In this document: piece by piece, positions 9,918 to 25,688 of the stretch
Layout of the letters: each line of letters opens with the position of its first letter
How positions within the stretch are numbered: position 1 is the stretch's first letter
Assembly: GCA_900316275.1 (NCBI GenBank)
Contig: ONCF01000057.1
Coordinates: 1 to 34,088 of the forward strand
Reading direction: 5' to 3'
Length of the DNA: 34,088 bases
Source: an uncultured Veillonellaceae bacterium
GTDB lineage: Bacteria > Bacillota > Negativicutes > Selenomonadales > Selenomonadaceae
The notes under the pieces: model-generated
Seen by the model: the letters and a program-made list of their open reading frames with translations, nothing else
What the model was told of the DNA's origin: nothing
The model's database searches: none
Program-made: the position numbers and the translations under genes

Positions 9918-10703
9918 ATGAATATCAGTGCCATGCAGCAGCGTAAGCAGGAAATGGGCTACTCTTTAGCCACATTGTCGTCGCTGACGGGGGTGCCACT
10001 GGGGACGTTGCAAAAAATTTTCAGCGGGCAGACGCAGCACCCGCGGCAGGCGACGCTGGAAAAACTGGCGGCGGTGCTGAGTCCCGCGTCTGCTGGTGGT
10101 ATGAGCGTGGCTGAACAGGCACCTGCGTATGGTGCCGGTAGCATTGACCCGCAGCGCCAGGGCAGCTATACCATCGAGGATTATTTCGCGCTGCCGGAGG
10201 ACAGGCGCTATGAGCTCATCGATGGCGTTATCTATGAAATGGCCTCGCCCTCGCGGCAGCACCAGGTGATTGCCGGAGCGCTCTTTAGCCAGCTGTTACG
10301 CTGCGTGGAGGAGCACGGCCCCGCGGACTGCTACCCCTATATTGCACCGCTGGACGTGCAGCTCGACCGGGACAATAAGACGATGGTGCAGCCGGATGTC
10401 ATGCTCTGCTGCGAGTCGGCACAGCAGAGCGGCGCGCGCATTTTTGGTGCACCGGCGTTCATCGCGGAGGTCATCTCGCCCAGTTCCCACGAGCGTGACA
10501 TTTTCCTCAAATTGCGTAAGTACAAAAACGCCGGTGTCAAGGAATACTGGATCATCTCCCCCGAACGGCAGAAAGTCGTGGCCTACCTCCTCTGCCAGGA
10601 CGACGACGTCTCCGTTTACACCTTCGACGACGTTATCCCTCTCACCATTTCTGAGGGGAAATGCAATATCAGTTTTGCCAGCATCAAAGAACGGCTAGGT
10701 TGA
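9918..10703 (+). CDS. XRE-type helix-turn-helix fused to a Uma2-family (DUF820) nuclease
   Basis: A 261-residue two-domain protein. Residues about 1-55 form a Cro/C1-type helix-turn-helix (LATLSSLTGVPLGTLQKIFS). A short linker leads to a Uma2 domain of the PD-(D/E)XK fold at about 75-250: YTIEDYFALPEDRRYELIDG, the PDVML acidic motif, FIAEVISPSS with the second acidic residue, and KLRKYKNAGVKEYWII with the basic residue. The nuclease residues look intact. Uma2 proteins are abundant, poorly characterised putative endonucleases; the HTH suggests sequence-specific DNA targeting or self-repression. It has its own promoter and precedes a toxin-antitoxin pair. Domain assignment is firm, biological role unknown. 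Confidence 0.88.
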   Translation: MNISAMQQRKQEMGYSLATLSSLTGVPLGTLQKIFSGQTQHPRQATLEKLAAVLSPASAGGMSVAEQAPAYGAGSIDPQRQGSYTIEDYFALPEDRRYELIDGVIYEMASPSRQHQVIAGALFSQLLRCVEEHGPADCYPYIAPLDVQLDRDNKTMVQPDVMLCCESAQQSGARIFGAPAFIAEVISPSSHERDIFLKLRKYKNAGVKEYWIISPERQKVVAYLLCQDDDVSVYTFDDVIPLTISEGKCNISFASIKERLG

Positions 10704-10705
10704 GA

Positions 10706-10734
10706 TTGCAAAAGCCTGACATTGGCGCTACAAT
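10706..10734 (+). promoter_or_regulatory. Promoter of the toxin-antitoxin pair
   Basis: TTGCAA (10706-10711), a 17-bp spacer and TACAAT (10729-10734), in the short gap after the Uma2 gene and 43 bases before the antitoxin start. Confidence 0.65.
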
Positions 10735-10777
10735 AAAATCAAAAGTATTGAGTAAAGTGCTGTCGGGAGGGATAAGT

Positions 10778-11071
10778 ATGCCTAAAACTGCAAGTATCAG
10801 CATGCGCATCGAGCCAGAGGTGAAAGCACAAGCGGAGGAAGTGTTTGCGAACCTCGGCATTTCGGTGACAGATGCTATCAACGTGTTTTTGCATACGTCT
10901 ATTTTAGAGGGCGGTTTCCCTTTTCGCCCGCGTCAGCCCCGTTATAATGCCGAAACGTACGCAGCCATGCAGGAGGCACGTGATATTATGAGTGGCAAAG
11001 TCCAGGTCAAACGCTATGCGTCGTTAGATGAACTGTTACAGGAAATCGATGCGGAGGATGCCGATGCTTGA
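10778..11071 (+). CDS. RelB/DinJ-family antitoxin
   Basis: A 97-residue protein with an N-terminal ribbon-helix-helix (TASISMRIEPEVKAQAEEVF, then LGISVTDAINVFL) that should dimerise and bind the operator. The variable C-terminal tail (YASLDELLQEIDAEDADA) should wrap the toxin. The start is ATG 10778, preceded by GGGAGG; an upstream extension from 10661 lacks a site and overlaps the Uma2 gene. Its 3' end overlaps the YafQ-type toxin start by 8 bases, the usual translational coupling of such pairs. Confidence 0.9.
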   Translation: MPKTASISMRIEPEVKAQAEEVFANLGISVTDAINVFLHTSILEGGFPFRPRQPRYNAETYAAMQEARDIMSGKVQVKRYASLDELLQEIDAEDADA

Positions 11072-11336
11072 CTTGGTAACTACGGCTAAGTTCCGTAAGG
11101 ATGTGAAACGTTTGCGCAAGCGTGGTGCAGACCTTACGAAACTGGATACGGTATTGAAAAAGCTGCAACGGGAAGAAGCCTTGCCGGCAAGGTATCATGA
11201 CCATCCCTTGATAGGCGATTTTGTTGGTTTCCGCGAATGCCATATCGAGCCAGACTGGCTACTCGTCTATGTCATTGATGAGGGGCATCTGATTTTGACT
11301 GCTTCGAGGACAGGACCACATGCAGATTTATTTTGA
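11064..11336 (+). CDS. YafQ-family mRNA interferase toxin
   Basis: A 90-residue RelE/YafQ toxin expected to cut mRNA in the ribosomal A site. The catalytic set matches E. coli YafQ in order and spacing: His47, His60, Asp64 (CHIEPDWLLVY), His86 and Phe90 (TGPHADLF at the C-terminus). The N-terminal basic helix KFRKDVKRLRKRG fits. The start is ATG 11064, with GGAGG about 6 bases upstream inside the antitoxin gene. All catalytic residues are kept, so the toxin is probably active and held by the upstream antitoxin. Confidence 0.92.
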   Translation: MLDLVTTAKFRKDVKRLRKRGADLTKLDTVLKKLQREEALPARYHDHPLIGDFVGFRECHIEPDWLLVYVIDEGHLILTASRTGPHADLF

Positions 11337-16146: not shown

Positions 16147-18252
16147 TCAGATCCCCAGCTCGATGTTCTTGATGGTGGTGGTGAGCTCTTCCATCTGGGC
16201 CTGCGTTTTAGCGTTGATGGCCTGCAGCGACTGGATGGACTGCGTGGAGCTCTGGATGTGGCGGATGCCTTCGTCGAGACTCTTGTGCAGGTCTTTCATC
16301 TCACTGGCGAAGTGCTCGTCAAACTCGTTGATCCGTGCCTCGAACGTGTGGTTGGCCTCGAGGATGCCGTCGATTTCCTTGACGTCATTGAGCAGTACGC
16401 TGATGGCGGCGTCGGAGGTCGCGAGGCTGGACTGTGTGTTTTCGGAGAGTTTACGTACTTCCTGCGCGACGACGGAGAAGCCGCGGCCGGCCTCGCCGGC
16501 GCGCGCAGCCTCGATGGCCGCGTTGAGGGCGAGCAGGTTGATCTGCGCCGCGATTTCGTCAATCATCTTCATGACGTCGTTGATTTTCTGCGTGTTCTGC
16601 GAGAGCATATCGAGCTTCGGCGTGATTTCACCGTTGCGCTGCATGAGCTGGTCAAAGAGGCCGTTCTGCTCGTCGATGCCGCCCGCGAGTTTTTTGATGG
16701 AGCCCTGAATCATCTCCACGTCATCCGACATACGCGTGATGGTCTCGACGATGGCCGGCATGTTGGCCTGATAGTCCTGGAACATCTTGATGACGCTGTC
16801 CTTGAGATGCTCCGTGTGCGCCTGGCGGTCAATGACGCGGCGCAGGAAGAACGCGCGGCAGTCGGCGTAGATGCGCGCGAAGTTGTCGAGGTAGCTGTCG
16901 TGGTAGGACTGCCCCGCCGGGGTGTGGTAGAAGAACACGGCCGTGAGCGTCTCGTTGACGTGCAGGCCGGCGATTTCGCCGAAGCTGGAGAAACCGGCCA
17001 CGGGGATGTCCTTGAACTCGTCGACGTGTTTGATTTCCTCCGGATAGCCGAGGCGGCGCAGAATGCAGTCATTGAGGATACCGCCGATGGGGGCAGGCTT
17101 GCCCTCGCGGTAGGCGGCTGTGTCACGCTGGATGGTCTGGCCGAGTGGCTGGCGGCGCATGAGGTAGAGTTTCTCACCCGTGACGACGTCGCAGAAGAAC
17201 GAGACGCTGTCCTGCGCGTCGTCGATACCCGAAATGGTACGGATGAAGTACTCGCCGTCGACGTCCGTGGCGAAGGTGTAATCCTGCATGGCGGCGTTCA
17301 GCTGGTCGGTCGTGCTCACGCCGAAGTGGTTTTTCAGAGCCTGAATAAAGGAGATGTCTTCGCCCGTCTGCGGGTCCTGTACGGTCTTGACGAAGCGCAG
17401 GGCCGTGTTGGCGCGGCTGATTTTAAAGCTGTCGCCGGTGGGCTGAACGGCCTGCGTTTTGAGAATGCCGTAGCGGTATTCTTTCGCGAGGCGCACGAGC
17501 GTGATGACGGCGTGGTTCTCCTGGCACTGCTCGTTGTCGTAGATGTAGGTGTGCTGGAAGTCCATGTTGCCGCCTGCGCTGCCGCCGATGAAGGGGCAGG
17601 GAAACTTGCCAGACTCGTAGAGCGCCTGCAGCGCGAAGGTCTCGCAACCCGAGACGCCATCGACGTAGATGAGCGCGAACGTGTGGTTTACGCTGATGCG
17701 GAACGGCACCTTGGCACGGCTCACGATATCGGTCATCTGCTGTACGCGCTCGGCCACGCTGAGCCGGACCTCGCCTGCGCGCAGGTCGTCATTCGGCAGC
17801 GGCAGGCTGATGATGCAGGTGTCCTCAATCATTTGGCAGGAGAAGGACTGCAGCAGCACACGCGCGCGGCCCTCGGGAGCCTCGCAGTAAATAGTGTTTT
17901 TGCCAGGCTGGCGGCAGAGCTCACCAGAGGTCGTCATGAGCACGACTTTCGTGTTCGGCGGCACCTGCTGCTTGATTTTGCGCGACACGCTGGGCATGTC
18001 GAGGTCCGGCGAGACGAAACCGAGTACGAGTGCCGTACCCTGCGGCAGACTGCAGAGGTCTTTCAGGTGGCTTGCGTCGAGCTCGCTTTCGTGCAGGTAG
18101 GCCGTCTTGATATCGGGCTGGTTGGCACTCGGCTGTGCAGCCGGGCGGGTCGCATGGATGCGGCTGGCCGGACTGGGCACACTGGGGGCCGCCTGCGGCT
18201 GGGCCGGCGTGGCTGCGTTTTGTGACTTGTTAGAGGAAAAAATACTGAACAT
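16147..18252 (-). CDS. Soluble FIST-domain methyl-accepting chemotaxis-type protein
   Basis: A 701-residue protein without signal peptide or membrane helix. Residues 1-55 are Ala/Pro/Gln-rich and look disordered. A FIST-N domain covers about 55-250 and a FIST-C domain about 265-420 ([28 protein letters not shown]-like segment). FIST is a sensory module predicted to bind small ligands such as amino acids. A coiled-coil and MCP signalling domain follow at about 480-700, with the conserved tip [32 protein letters not shown] split across the hairpin; key part [17 protein letters not shown]. It should signal to CheA/CheW in the cytoplasm. GAGGTG precedes ATG 18252. An SDR gene follows 2 bases after its stop. 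Confidence 0.9.
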
Positions 18253-21578: not shown

Positions 21579-21598
21579 GTTTACAGAAAAACTGCCGA

Positions 21599-21690
21599 GA
21601 TTAGGTTCGAGGCAGAGGGTCGGCCACGGGCGGGTGGCACCAACGCTACGCTAAGTAAATTTGCTAAGTGAAAAATTTTGCCAAGAATTA
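21599..21690. repeat. Partial long-hairpin element (5' arm only)
   Basis: About 90 bases repeat the 5' arm of copy C at an offset of about 86 bases. They share TTAGG(T)TCGAGGCAGA, CCAACGCTACGCT, AAATTTGCTA and GAATTA. The loop and 3' arm are absent, so it is a truncated tandem copy. Confidence 0.65.
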
Positions 21691-21709
21691 GGTCGAGGCA
21701 GACGGTCAG

Positions 21710-21901
21710 CCGACGGCAGGGCACACCAACGCTACGCTGAGAAAATTTGCTACAGAAAAATTTTTCCGGGAATTAATCCTGTAAAAGTACTTAAACGCGC
21801 TTCGCTTGAACGAAAGTACTTTTACGAGGAAGCTAGTCGGAAAAATTTTTCTGCTTAACGCAAATTTTCAACGCTTCGCTTATGGTATACCCTGCCGTTG
21901 G
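21710..21901. repeat. Long-hairpin intergenic element, copy C
   Basis: A 192-bp near-palindrome between the convergent leuB and cydDC genes. The outer arms (CCGACGGCAGGG and CCCTGCCGTTGG) pair with few mismatches, and an inner AGAAAAATTTTTCCG stem follows. The central hairpin AAGTAC...GTACTT carries the loop ACGCGCTTCGCTTGAACG, identical to copy B. The TTAACGCAAAT patch matches copies A and B, and GAAGCTAGT matches copy A. Orientation is as in copy B. Confidence 0.85.
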
Positions 21902-21920
21902 CTTCGTTCGTTGCAAAACG

Positions 21921-24900
21921 TTATCCCAGCTTTATCACCTGCTCGCAATACGACAACGGCAGCGGGTCGTGGGTGATGATGAGCAGGGCTTGGTGGGTGC
22001 GTTCTACGCGGGCGAAGAGGGCGGCGAGGAGGCGCTGCGTGGTGGCGGTATCGAGGCCGGCCGTGGGCTCGTCGAGGATGAGCAGCGGCGTATCGCTCGC
22101 GATGGTGAGAGCAGTGAGCAGGCGGCTGCGCTGGCCGCCAGAGAGCTGGCTGGCGCTGACTGAAGGGGTCGTCACTCCATTTACCTCAAACTGGGCGTCT
22201 TGCAGGGCGGCCAGTATTTTTTTGTCCTCAATGTCTGGGAAGAGGGCTCTGAAGTTGTCATGTATAGAGGCGTTAAAGAGCTGGCAGCCCTGCGGGATGA
22301 CGGTGATGGCGCCGTGGTGCTCGATGGTGCCGCTGTCGGGCGGCCAGACGCCGGCGAGGAGCTGGGCGAGGGTGGTTTTGCCCGCGCCGCTTTCGCCGAC
22401 GAGGGCGGTGTGCTGGCCAGGAGCGATGGTGAAGGAGAGGTCGCGCAGGAGCGGCTGGGCGGGTGTGTGGCCGAAGGTCAGGGAGCGGACGTTTAGGAGA
22501 GTTGGGAGTGAAGAGTTGGGAGTTGTAAGCTGAGAGGCGCTTTTGCAGGAACTTTGCGACGCGCCAGAGTGAGGAAAATTATCCTCGACCGGTGGGAGTA
22601 TATTTTTTGCGGCGGTGCGGGCGATTTTCGCTTGGCGGGCGGCGGTGGGGAGCAGGTTGTAGTTATCCAACAGGGTGAGCAGGAGAAGCAACCAGACGGC
22701 GAGGCCGACGCCGGAGAGTGGCGTTATCATGGTGGCAGAGGCTGGTGCTGCGGTGACGCAGGGAATGAGGGTGGCAGTGAGCAGGAGCAGGGTGGCGTGG
22801 GCGGTGAGGGATAGCAGGGTGTCGGTGAGGTCCTGGCGTGTATCTGCGTGAGCGCGTTGCTGCTGCCAGTTTTGAGCGCACTGGTTCAGGCGGCCCATAG
22901 CCGTGGCCGTGGTGCCAGCGAGGGTGAGCTCATCGCGGCCGGCGTGACAGTCGGCGAGGGTGGTGCGGTAAAGGGATTCGGCAGAACGGATAGGACTGGA
23001 GAGTTGAGAGTTGAGAGTTGAGAGTTTAAGCAGAGAACCACTTTTGCAGGAGCTTTGCGACGCGCAAAAGTGTGCGAATCGCTTAGTCAAGTTGTCGTCA
23101 GACGAGCTTGACTTCCTTATTATCGCGTAGGGTAGTAGCAGGTGCAGGAGACAGCAGGCTGGGAGCAGGAGGGCGAGCGCGCCGATATGGGGCCAGAGGA
23201 GGGCGGTAAAGAGAATGGTGGCGAGGCCGAGGGTGAGGGGCGGCAGCAGGGCGCGCAGGTAGAAATCGCGCAGGTCGGCACTGCCAGTGAGCAGGTCGTG
23301 CAGGAAAGCGCCTTGCGCGGCGAGGCCGGAGCGCAGGGGGAGCAGGGCGGAGGCCTTTTTATAGAGGAACATATGCAGGCGCGTCTGGATGCGGAAGGCG
23401 GTGCGGTGGGTGTAGTAGCGCTCGGCGTAGCGGGCGGCAGCGCGGCCGAGGCCACAGGCGCGCACGGCGGTGATGCCGAGCGTGAGGGCATAGAGGGGCG
23501 GCTGCAGGGCGGCCGTGGCGATGAGCCAGGCGGCGGCGCCGAGCAGGCCAAGGCCGGTGGCGAGGGCGAGGAGACTCACGGCTAGGAGGAGCAGGAGCGA
23601 AGGAAAGGAGATAAGAGTGAAGAGTTGGGAGTTGAGAGTGGTAAGCAGAGAGCCACTTTTGAAGGAGCGAAGCGACGCGCAAAAGTGAGCGGCTGTTGGA
23701 GGGAGTTGAGAGTTGAGAGTTGGGAGTTGGGAGGGATTTGGCGATGCTGTGGCGGTGTCGGCGGAGTTTGTTGCAGCGGTTGTGATGGGCGGTGCTAGGG
23801 TGAGGACGTTGTCAGCTAGCGCTAGCACGGCGGGGCGGTGGCTGATGATGATGAGGGTGCGGTGGTAACTGAAATTTTTGAGTGTCTGTAGGATGATCTG
23901 CTCGGTGGCGGCGTCGAGGCCGGCCGTGGGCTCGTCGAGGATGACGACGGGGCGGGCCTGCAGCAGAGCACGGGCGAGGCCGAGGCGATGGCGCTCGCCT
24001 TGGGAGAGGGTGAGGCCGCCGGGGCCGAGCGGAGTGTCGAGGCCTTGTGGGAGGAAACGGTACCAGTTGGTGAGGGCGGCTTGATTCAGGGCAGAGAGGC
24101 AATGCTCATCGGAGACGGATTGAGAGAGTTGGGAGTTGAGAGTGAGGAGTTTAAGCATAGAGCCGTTTTTGAAGGAGCTTTGCGACGCGCAAAAGTGAGT
24201 ACTATCTCCATCGCCAAAGTTTAACGTGAGGTTTTCACGCAGTGTCGCGGCGTAGAGGTGGGGCTCTTGCGGGACGTAGGAGAGGATTTTGGCACGGCTG
24301 GCGGCGTCCATGGTAACGAGAGGCTGATCCTCAAACAGGATGGTGCCGTCACTGGGCTGGGCAAGACCAGCGAGCAGGCGGCAGAGTGTGCTTTTGCCAC
24401 AGCCGCTGGGGCCGGTGACTACGGTTATTTGGGAGGCGGGGATGGTGAGGGGTGAGAGTGAAGCGTTGGGAGAGTCGTTGGTAGTGTTGAGAGTTGAGAG
24501 TGGGGAGTTGGGAGTATGGTTTGGTGACCAGGAGGCAGTGGTCAAGTCAAGGGCATTATTGGTAGTGTCTGGGTAGCGGTAGCGGAGGTTTTGCAGGTGG
24601 ATGGCAGGCGGGATGCGCAGCTGGGCGTGGTGGCTGTGAGGCGCGGGCGTGTCAGCAGCGGCGAGGCAGGGGGCGAGTTTTTGCCAGGCGGTGCGGGCAG
24701 TCATGGCGGCGTGGAAACTGGCCCCCGCACTGCGCAGGGGCTGGTAGAAAATGGGGGCGAGCAGCAGCACGGTAAAGGCAGTCAAAAAGTCCAGCTGGCC
24801 GTAGAGCAGGCGCAGGCCGATGCTCACGGCGAGCAGGGCGATGGCGAGTGTCGTAATGAGCTCGAGGGCGAATGTGGAGAGGAAGGCCACCTGCAGTACG

Positions 24901-25598
24901 GCGAGCGAGGCGGTGCTGAAACGCTGACTGAGTGCGTGCAGGCGCTCGCCCTGCCGCGCGACTTGACCGAACAGTTTCAACGTGGGCAGGCAGGCCAGAA
25001 GCTCGCCAAAGCTGGCGCTGAGCGTGGCGAGCTCTTGCCAGGCAGCCGCACTGCGCTTTTGTGTCACGCTGCCGATGAGCCAGAGCAGCAACGGCGCGAT
25101 GGGCAACGTGACGAGCGCGAGCAGGCCCGTGGGCCAGTCGAGCAGCCAGAGCGCGATGAGCAGGCAGGGCGTGCTGCAGACGAACTGCGCGAGGTTCGGC
25201 AGGACCTGCATGACGGCTCCGTCAAGTGCATCCGTCGTCTCCAAGGCAAGCGTGAGCAAGCGCTGGCTGTCTTTGATAGCTGTTTGGGGTTCCAGACAGG
25301 CGTGATGTAATTGCTGCCGGATATCCTGCCTCAGGCTGAGTGAGAGCTGGCGCAGCAGTCTTTTTTGATACAGCGCCAGTCCCGCCTGCCCTGCGAGCAC
25401 GCCAAAAAGCGCCAGAAGAACTGGCGCTGTGGCAGCTAAATCCCAATCTCCCAGGAACACACCATTGATGGCCGCCGCCAGCAGCAGACAGGCACTGATT
25501 TGCAGGCCCGTCATGCCAACGGTGGTCAGGCTCAGCCGTAAGCGTACGGCAAAAGAAAAGTGGCGTAATACCAATGGCGGGAGGGAGAGTTTCTTCAT
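21921..25598 (-). CDS. cydDC: Fused CydD-CydC thiol (glutathione/cysteine) ABC exporter with repeat-encoded insertions
   Basis: A single 1225-residue chain carries two full ABC half-transporters needed for cytochrome bd assembly. The CydD half is about residues 1-620. It has six membrane helices, Walker A GPSGCGKST, signature LSQGERHRLG and Walker B VVILDEPTAGLD. The CydC half is about 660-1225, with membrane helices from FPSLLLLLAVSLLALATGLG, the RYAERYYTH motif, Walker A GESGAGKTT, LSGGQRSRL and LLILDEPTAGLD. Five low-complexity insertions, four with HFCASQSS-like and TLNSQLS-like stretches, sit at about residues 360-386, 466-493, 622-662, 841-867 and 1007-1034. They are encoded by a DNA repeat. 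Usual CydD and CydC are separate proteins of about 550-590 residues. It follows cydB after 109 bases. Confidence 0.93.
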   Translation of the reverse strand: MKKLSLPPLVLRHFSFAVRLRLSLTTVGMTGLQISACLLLAAAINGVFLGDWDLAATAPVLLALFGVLAGQAGLALYQKRLLRQLSLSLRQDIRQQLHHACLEPQTAIKDSQRLLTLALETTDALDGAVMQVLPNLAQFVCSTPCLLIALWLLDWPTGLLALVTLPIAPLLLWLIGSVTQKRSAAAWQELATLSASFGELLACLPTLKLFGQVARQGERLHALSQRFSTASLAVLQVAFLSTFALELITTLAIALLAVSIGLRLLYGQLDFLTAFTVLLLAPIFYQPLRSAGASFHAAMTARTAWQKLAPCLAAADTPAPHSHHAQLRIPPAIHLQNLRYRYPDTTNNALDLTTASWSPNHTPNSPLSTLNTTNDSPNASLSPLTIPASQITVVTGPSGCGKSTLCRLLAGLAQPSDGTILFEDQPLVTMDAASRAKILSYVPQEPHLYAATLRENLTLNFGDGDSTHFCASQSSFKNGSMLKLLTLNSQLSQSVSDEHCLSALNQAALTNWYRFLPQGLDTPLGPGGLTLSQGERHRLGLARALLQARPVVILDEPTAGLDAATEQIILQTLKNFSYHRTLIIISHRPAVLALADNVLTLAPPITTAATNSADTATASPNPSQLPTLNSQLPPTAAHFCASLRSFKSGSLLTTLNSQLFTLISFPSLLLLLAVSLLALATGLGLLGAAAWLIATAALQPPLYALTLGITAVRACGLGRAAARYAERYYTHRTAFRIQTRLHMFLYKKASALLPLRSGLAAQGAFLHDLLTGSADLRDFYLRALLPPLTLGLATILFTALLWPHIGALALLLPACCLLHLLLPYAIIRKSSSSDDNLTKRFAHFCASQSSCKSGSLLKLSTLNSQLSSPIRSAESLYRTTLADCHAGRDELTLAGTTATAMGRLNQCAQNWQQQRAHADTRQDLTDTLLSLTAHATLLLLTATLIPCVTAAPASATMITPLSGVGLAVWLLLLLTLLDNYNLLPTAARQAKIARTAAKNILPPVEDNFPHSGASQSSCKSASQLTTPNSSLPTLLNVRSLTFGHTPAQPLLRDLSFTIAPGQHTALVGESGAGKTTLAQLLAGVWPPDSGTIEHHGAITVIPQGCQLFNASIHDNFRALFPDIEDKKILAALQDAQFEVNGVTTPSVSASQLSGGQRSRLLTALTIASDTPLLILDEPTAGLDTATTQRLLAALFARVERTHQALLIITHDPLPLSYCEQVIKLG
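22162..22179. repeat. 18-bp repeat inside cydDC
   Basis: GAAGGGGTCGTCACTCCA is identical to 20481-20498 in the leuD-leuB gap. Here it is coding (minus strand) and gives the unusual stretch GVTTPS just before the CydC signature LSGGQ. Confidence 0.75.
22498..22580. repeat. In-frame repeat unit R1 in cydDC
   Basis: Minisatellite GAGTTGGGAGT followed by a decayed palindrome (CGCTTTTGCAGGAACTTTGC...GCGCCAGAGTG). Read on the minus strand it encodes GASQSSCKSASQL and TTPNSSLPTL in the linker between the CydC membrane and nucleotide-binding domains. Confidence 0.8.
22998..23078. repeat. In-frame repeat unit R2 in cydDC
   Basis: Three GAGAGTT units, then a palindrome with arms CACTTTTGC and GCAAAAGTG (9 perfect pairs). 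Encodes HFCASQSSCKSGSLLKL and STLNSQLS within the CydC membrane domain, in a loop between helices. Confidence 0.85.
23613..23735. repeat. In-frame repeat unit R3 at the CydD-CydC junction
   Basis: Minisatellite, palindrome (CACTTTTG...CAAAAGTG) and a second minisatellite tract. Encodes LPTLNSQL, HFCASLRSFKSGSLL and TTLNSQLF exactly between the end of CydD and the first CydC helix. Confidence 0.85.
24121..24203. repeat. In-frame repeat unit R4 in cydDC
   Basis: Minisatellite followed by a partly decayed palindrome (GTTTTTGAAGGAGC...GCGCAAAAGTG). Encodes HFCASQSSFKNGSMLKL and LTLNSQLSQS in the CydD nucleotide-binding domain, between RENLTLNFGDG and the helix before LSQGE. Confidence 0.85.
24441..24520. 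repeat. Minisatellite tract R5 in cydDC
   Basis: Only the GAGTTGAGAGT-type units, with no palindrome. Encodes PNSPLSTLN and SPNASLSPL in the linker before the CydD nucleotide-binding domain. Confidence 0.65.
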
Positions 25599-25628
25599 AG
25601 TGGTTGCTTTCCTAAAGTTGAGATTAAA

Positions 25629-25688
25629 AGAGTTGAGAGTGAAGAGTTGAGATAGGACATTGCCCTCTCACTCCCAACTCTCAACTCT
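25629..25688. repeat. Inverted minisatellite in the cydB-cydDC gap
   Basis: AGAGTTGAGAGT (25629-25640) and ACTCTCAACTCT (25677-25688) are perfect 12-base inverted repeats built of the same unit as the cydDC insertions. They may form a hairpin in the intercistronic RNA. The rest of the 109-base gap holds only the cydDC ribosome binding site. Confidence 0.75.

Follow-up and report, generated by a model that had tools for sequence, protein, structure and literature searches.

A non-coding hairpin repeat of the Negativicutes probably entered cydDC and spread within the gene as tolerated, in-frame protein segments

Introduction

How does a transporter gene come to hold several copies of a DNA repeat, all in frame, and are the residues encoded there insertions or old protein sequence that only looks repetitive? 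The question is posed by cydDC in a 34,088-nt stretch of DNA (contig ONCF01000057.1, hereafter the window) from an uncultured Veillonellaceae bacterium, the window being one contig of a 2.19-Mb draft genome in 116 contigs. An initial annotation had proposed that four units joining a palindrome to a minisatellite, and a fifth tract of minisatellite only, are inserted in this gene, and had named Rickettsia palindromic elements as the known precedent. Our analysis indicates that a non-coding hairpin repeat probably entered cydDC, spread within the gene and is tolerated there as protein ballast.

Results

The gene (21921-25598, minus strand) is a single ORF of 1225 aa for a fused CydD-CydC thiol/heme ABC exporter, to which the curated models TIGR02857 (E 5e-161) and TIGR02868 (E 7e-128) match, and cydB-like and cydA-like ORFs lie directly upstream. 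The spacer behind it (21582-21903) holds an 86-bp tandem repeat in 2.3 copies and nested inverted repeats (21753-21768/21838-21853, GTAAAAGTACTT/AAGTACTTTTAC), enclosing a loop, CGCGCTTCGCTTGAACG, that loosely resembles the loop of the hairpin family described below; these repeats are perhaps another family. Elsewhere the window contains a CRISPR array (161-1490; 32-nt repeat GTCGCCCCTCACGTGGGGGCGTGGATTGAAAT, period about 65), which we take to be type I-C-like, a probable toxin-antitoxin pair (10661-11336) made up of a RelB-like antitoxin ORF and a small ORF behind it, with an HTH-Uma2 protein before them, and, on the minus strand at 16147-18252, a receptor that combines a NosP/FIST-like sensor part with a chemotaxis signalling part.

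All four hairpin-plus-heptamer units and the heptamer-only tract lie in cydDC where the initial annotation had placed them, all on the minus strand. R1 (22497-22573; aa 1010-1035, in the linker from the CydC membrane domain to NBD2) consists of a truncated hairpin with decayed arms and a CAAAG loop (22524-22571), followed by heptamers (22497-22523). R2 (22999-23118; aa about 828-867) turned out to be longer than first described: it is a full 92-nt element (23027-23118) with perfect inner arms, a CAAAG loop and a second hairpin, GTCAAGCTCGTC/GACAACTTGAC, followed by an array of four heptamers that is 100% identical (22999-23026). R3 (23614-23735; aa about 622-662, at the CydD/CydC junction) has a hairpin with perfect arms and a TTCG loop (23640-23687) and, unlike in the earlier description, heptamers on both flanks (23614-23639 and 23701-23735; 4.4 units at 95%). 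R4 (24123-24199; aa 468-492, within NBD1 past the Q-loop) is again a truncated hairpin, with one arm decayed and a CAAAG loop (24150-24197), followed by heptamers (24123-24149). The fifth tract (24440-24520; aa about 360-386, in the N-terminal part of NBD1) contains heptamers only, with a tandem array at 24486-24515. The order hairpin-GCTTA-heptamers is common to all four units, and R1, R3 and R4 are truncated at one common point, the start of the inner arm (CACTTTTG), R2 being of full length. All four units are read in the same frame, so that their hairpins give related peptides (HFCASQSS../HFCASLRS../HSGASQSS..), the ORF runs on uninterrupted, and the segments of about 23-40 aa agree with the 25-40 given before.

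Searched with a covariance model of the hairpin, the window yields exactly four matches. Each falls in cydDC and on its coding (minus) strand: 23027-23087 (R2, E 8e-23), 23642-23702 (R3, 4e-17), 24152-24212 (R4, 8e-11) and 22526-22586 (R1, 1e-7). Because these copies also went into building the model, these E values are no independent test; BLAST within the genome, which is independent of the model, matches unit to unit with E values of 1e-16 to 1e-21, excluding chance. The gene makes up 0.17% of the genome and holds 4 of its 8-9 hairpins (P about 1e-9) and 7 of its 23 heptamer tracts (P about 1e-14), both P values assuming independent places.

On inspection of the sequence, the heptamer (AACTCTC)n is free of stops in all three frames of the coding strand; its opposite strand contains TGA, and every frame there is closed from three units on. 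The 92-nt element of R2 and its 28 nt of heptamers sum to 120 and are divisible by three only as a whole, so that arrival in steps would have meant an interim frameshift. Since seven is not a multiple of three, one might suppose that heptamer slippage toggles CydDC on and off, as a contingency switch. The seven-base units themselves, with four perfect copies in R2 and the 4.4 at 95% in R3, fit this reading, and repeat-driven switching is known in Haemophilus (PMC2651432). However, the tracts are short and mostly imperfect, similar ones are common between the genes of this genome, and CydDC is no surface antigen, so we regard such a switch as very unlikely. Heptamer tracts also occur here as inverted pairs, about 15-40 nt apart, which are frequent between genes (L087:4345-4435, L088:5102-5180) and could themselves fold as hairpins; one such pair, with its arrays on opposite strands (25616-25652 and 25665-25688), fills 25616-25688 of the window, in the cydB/cydDC spacer.

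Are the segments insertions? According to the initial annotation, they would be ancestral protein if orthologues free of the repeat carried the same residues at these sites. Alignment with 11 relatives, a comparison it had proposed, gives a clear answer for three of the five places. R2 is a clean insertion found in the window only, its residues being absent from the orthologues of all 11 relatives, and R4 and the fifth tract are extra residues absent from relatives outside the genus. Alignment with solved structures agrees: R4 adds 31 aa exactly between D449 and A450 of E. coli CydD, the fifth tract is about 26 aa longer than in E. coli CydD, and R2, aligned with the CydC membrane domain alone, has 36 aa where E. 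coli CydC has three, between residues 195 and 199 (about 33 extra). The CydC half gave no match in the PDB at E 1e-40. At the empty sites a target-site duplication is unreadable in the alignment, the flanks having diverged too far. R1 and R3 lie in linkers that vary across all relatives, the R3 linker having another length and content in the genomes UBA2897 and RUG072, and for this reason their status is weaker than that of R2 and R4; that repeat DNA is present at both is certain, and we consider them likely insertions, judging from sequence. That the residues are old linkers which only resemble repeats could be argued from just these variable sites. Against it stand the 88% DNA match over 92 nt to intergenic elements, and the residues missing from relatives, on which ground we abandoned it for R2, R4 and the fifth tract; as an account of the whole we find it scarcely credible. 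From their positions, the inserts would lie at the protein surface.

The sister genome of the window genome, UBA2897 (support 100/99), carries the repeat in its own cydDC, arranged differently. Its fifth site is occupied by a full 92-nt element (L064:1509-1569, covariance model E 4e-22), as against the bare heptamers of the window, and heptamer-like peptides (NSQRSTLN etc.) stand at several shared linkers and at an additional position in NBD2. In RUG072, on the next branch, no such repeats are visible in the alignment of cydDC. Judged on four genomes of the genus, the invasion of the gene therefore probably dates to the branch of the window genome and UBA2897. A draft of 116 contigs invites the suspicion of an assembly error, to which repeats are prone, or else the gene might be dead. 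But UBA2897 independently shows hairpin and heptamers in its cydDC, which speaks against misassembly, and in the window gene no insert closes the frame, and both nucleotide-binding (ATPase) domains retain their motifs. Compared with UBA2897, pN/pS is about 0.4-0.5 in most segments and 0.8 in aa 880-1000; cydDC is thus mostly under constraint between and after the inserts, and either artefact or dead gene is extremely improbable.

The full unit, defined from copies in the window genome and UBA2897, is about 92 nt long and reads AAGGA, hairpin 1 (GTCAAGCTCGCC..GGCGACTTGAC), TAAGCGATTCGCA, hairpin 2 with variable arms around TGCGCGTCGCTACGCTCCTTC, and then GGCTCTCTGCTTA. The widespread part is hairpin 2 alone. 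Among 44 copies 91% of cells pair, double changes occur in 14 of 20 pairs, and 96 double-change cells are observed against 22 in shuffles; slid structures, as a control on the same copies, give no covariation signal. All four Watson-Crick types occur at two inner-stem pairs (columns 18-48 and 19-47), and the TAAGC...GCTTA outer stem is paired in 93.5% of cells. Such strong covariation makes selection for pairing across the family a well-supported reading of the sequences. Tandem copies in UBA2897 have TA in common.

The search of the genome and its relatives that had been proposed with the R2 palindrome reveals a family spread across the class. Matches to the exact core pattern occur only in Negativicutes among 84,980 species searched, and the covariance model finds the hairpin in at least 107 of 380 Negativicutes genomes and at least 34 of 102 genera, both lower bounds with 14 candidates scored per genome. 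No Rfam family reaches its gathering score at the hairpin elements, and searches of the literature on hairpins in Negativicutes spacers or Selenomonas palindromes returned no relevant description, so that, within the scope of these searches, the family is apparently undescribed. The earlier suggestion that a comparable system is undescribed accordingly holds for this hairpin family; it does not hold for in-frame palindromic repeats as such, which are already known from Rickettsia, Wolbachia, Methanocaldococcus (M. jannaschii) and enterobacteria and from REP families (PMC2996958, PMC2229807, PMC3733652, PMC10969869).

Outside the genus, 14 of the 20 best-per-genome copies, which are high-scoring copies and not a random sample, have a 16S, 23S, 5S or tRNA gene no more than about 160 nt away, and several further copies abut the 23S 3' end. 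The hairpin recurs at that end, behind 16S, near 5S and between tRNAs (e.g. L157:3098-3161, L158:3158-3221, L274, L263), and one copy (L203) has RNase P RNA as its neighbour, at about 30 nt. Next to rRNA and tRNA genes the hairpin is possibly an RNA-processing structure. The pattern is different in the window genome and UBA2897, where the majority of copies are found in spacers between protein genes, frequently at stop codons; the window genome may nevertheless possess an rRNA-side copy, because drafts assemble rRNA operons poorly. In two species of one Selenomonadaceae genus the hairpin stands just upstream of obgE (L154:3747-3810, L264:1501-1561), and its presence in both suggests an old, retained copy.

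Given this family, did the units reach cydDC one by one, or did they spread inside it? The exact CAAAG loop (CGCGTCGCAAAGNTCCTNCA) is present in R1, R2, R4 and the UBA2897 cydDC copy, at non-homologous sites, and has no match elsewhere in 41 genomes; it thus occurs in four of the five cydDC copies and in none of the 39 other copies. A loop exclusive to cydDC suggests, as far as sequence can tell, that the repeat spread inside the gene. It is conceivable instead that the units were never copied within the gene and that each arrived on its own from intergenic copies, with cydDC as a permissive or favoured target. The TTCG loop of R3, the full length of R2 against the truncated others, and the different cydDC site of the UBA2897 copy would all accord with this, yet it leaves the private loop, the common truncation point and the shared composite order without a common source, and we think it unlikely. 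Those same three features make copying within cydDC the best reading, R3 excepted, which may be a separate arrival because its loop is TTCG.

The covariation also raises the possibility that the hairpins in cydDC mRNA serve at the RNA level, as processing or stability elements such as RNase III sites. Selection for pairing in the family, and the concentration of the best copies outside the genus near rRNA and tRNA genes, several at the 23S 3' end, favour such a role. In cydDC, however, pairing has not been preserved, the inner stem of R1 and R4 being decayed, and the small apical stem is broken by CAAAG, which together render the idea quite improbable. The decayed arms point rather to tolerated ballast, as do the differences between inserts, which are mostly non-synonymous (pN/pS 0.74, over only 16 codons in four copies). 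As for the means of movement, a RAYT-type transposase was rejected as the mover, since a search of four genomes from the genus found no Y1 (PF01797)/RAYT transposase; a MITE-like route is suggested by the TA ends.

A second gene shows the same outcome. In Dialister UBA7295 the exact core pattern lies inside hypF (L133:1739-4327, plus strand, an 893-aa ORF), whose product carries 125 extra residues in frame. Most of this insert consists of sequences that recur in other parts of that genome, and it includes the hairpin core on the opposite strand (FLKERSDAQK) and another heptamer-like tract (PNPQSSIPNP). Two congeneric HypF proteins have an empty site with continuous sequence, and between aligned blocks the structure 3vth has 25 residues against 143 in UBA7295. 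This is an independent case. Peptide searches in both open frames of 380 genomes, a set that does not include the UBA7295 genome, gave no further internal insertion beyond cydDC, and so in-frame insertion is a rare event. Stop-to-stop ORFs overlapping an element (UBA2897 C17 and C62; G027, G293, G295, G292) were considered as in-frame cases and rejected, since they lie upstream of start codons or at gene ends or are spurious antisense frames. Heptamers also occur in frame (SPSSQLSTPNTS) at the domain junction of a CbiM-PDGLE fusion in the window genome (contig C70, L091:3827-4867, plus strand).

Discussion

Taken together, we propose that the units would be copies of a Negativicutes non-coding hairpin repeat, joined to the heptamer minisatellite, which would have entered cydDC once RUG072 had branched off, in the lineage of the window genome and UBA2897. 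It would then have spread inside the gene as a roughly 75-nt, 25-codon cassette, settling at sites where it did little harm (an NBD1 loop, a membrane-domain loop, the CydD/CydC junction and a linker), and copies would be retained only if the total of added bases was divisible by three and the gene read them on the open strand and in an open frame. The inserted peptides would be ballast with little or no function. Copying within cydDC, tolerance and translation of the inserts are here what we infer. More tentatively, the hairpin might be native to the rRNA/tRNA operon spacers of Negativicutes, where it would probably be an RNA-processing structure, and might then have multiplied and finally become the coding cassette spreading in one transporter gene; if that origin is true, it traces a path from stable-RNA spacer to protein segment.

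The case for repeat DNA as a source of new protein segments has so far drawn chiefly on Rickettsia, together with a few further lineages. The present case comes from a common gut and rumen bacterial class and offers one gene with several copies and a sister species with a different set, to which hypF, whose site is empty in two congeners, adds an independent case; with these comes an apparently undescribed, widespread hairpin family at rRNA and tRNA operons. For annotation, peptides such as HFCASQSSFKSGSLL would be translated repeat and not a domain.

Among known systems, the precedent named at the outset, the Rickettsia palindromic elements, holds as an analogy, in that both have a palindrome between genes and in frame in genes. 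In the accounts that PMC2996958 and PMC2229807 give of them (after Ogata 2000, 2002), those elements are short palindromes, mostly intergenic, also found in frame in genes for conserved proteins at positions that tolerate extra residues, and in stable RNA genes (tmRNA, RNase P RNA). Our family likewise has intergenic and in-frame copies (cydDC, hypF). It differs in belonging to another phylum, in being shorter (61-92 nt against 105-146), in placing several copies in one gene where theirs, in the same accounts, are single copies in many unrelated genes, and in joining its hairpin to a heptamer minisatellite. Spread over many unrelated protein genes of one genome is not seen here, cydDC being the only gene found in the 380-genome peptide searches. 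We know of no sequence in common between the present hairpin and the Rickettsia elements, and on the descriptions compared here the two would be separate families with the same outcome. A review of 2024 already held a similar process elsewhere to be conceivable (PMC10969869).

Heptamer tracts such as these may resemble the heptamer repeats of cyanobacteria. Like heptanucleotide short tandem repeats in general, they have a seven-base unit at many intergenic places; unlike them, they also stand inside ORFs (cydDC, the CbiM-PDGLE fusion) and are joined to a hairpin. Several hairpin units in one gene are also known from the intragenic GTAG/CGTC REP sequences (Di Nocera 2013), hairpins in coding regions with more than one unit in uvrA of O. 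terrae and Thioalkalivibrio (PMC3733652). Those units, however, are 20-40 bp long and carry a GTAG or CGTC tag, the GTAG group being tied to transposase genes (PMC3733652), whereas no Y1 transposase was found in the four genomes from the genus of the window; the paper makes no mention of Selenomonas, Veillonella, Acidaminococcus or Megasphaera. Finally, the bacterial MITEs ERIC, Correia/NEMIS and YPAL, which have been fused in frame (PMC2229807, PMC10969869), share with the present element a small, non-autonomous hairpin with terminal inverted repeats and TA at both ends that can extend or enter ORFs, and differ from it in that its terminal repeat is only about 5 bp (TAAGC/GCTTA).
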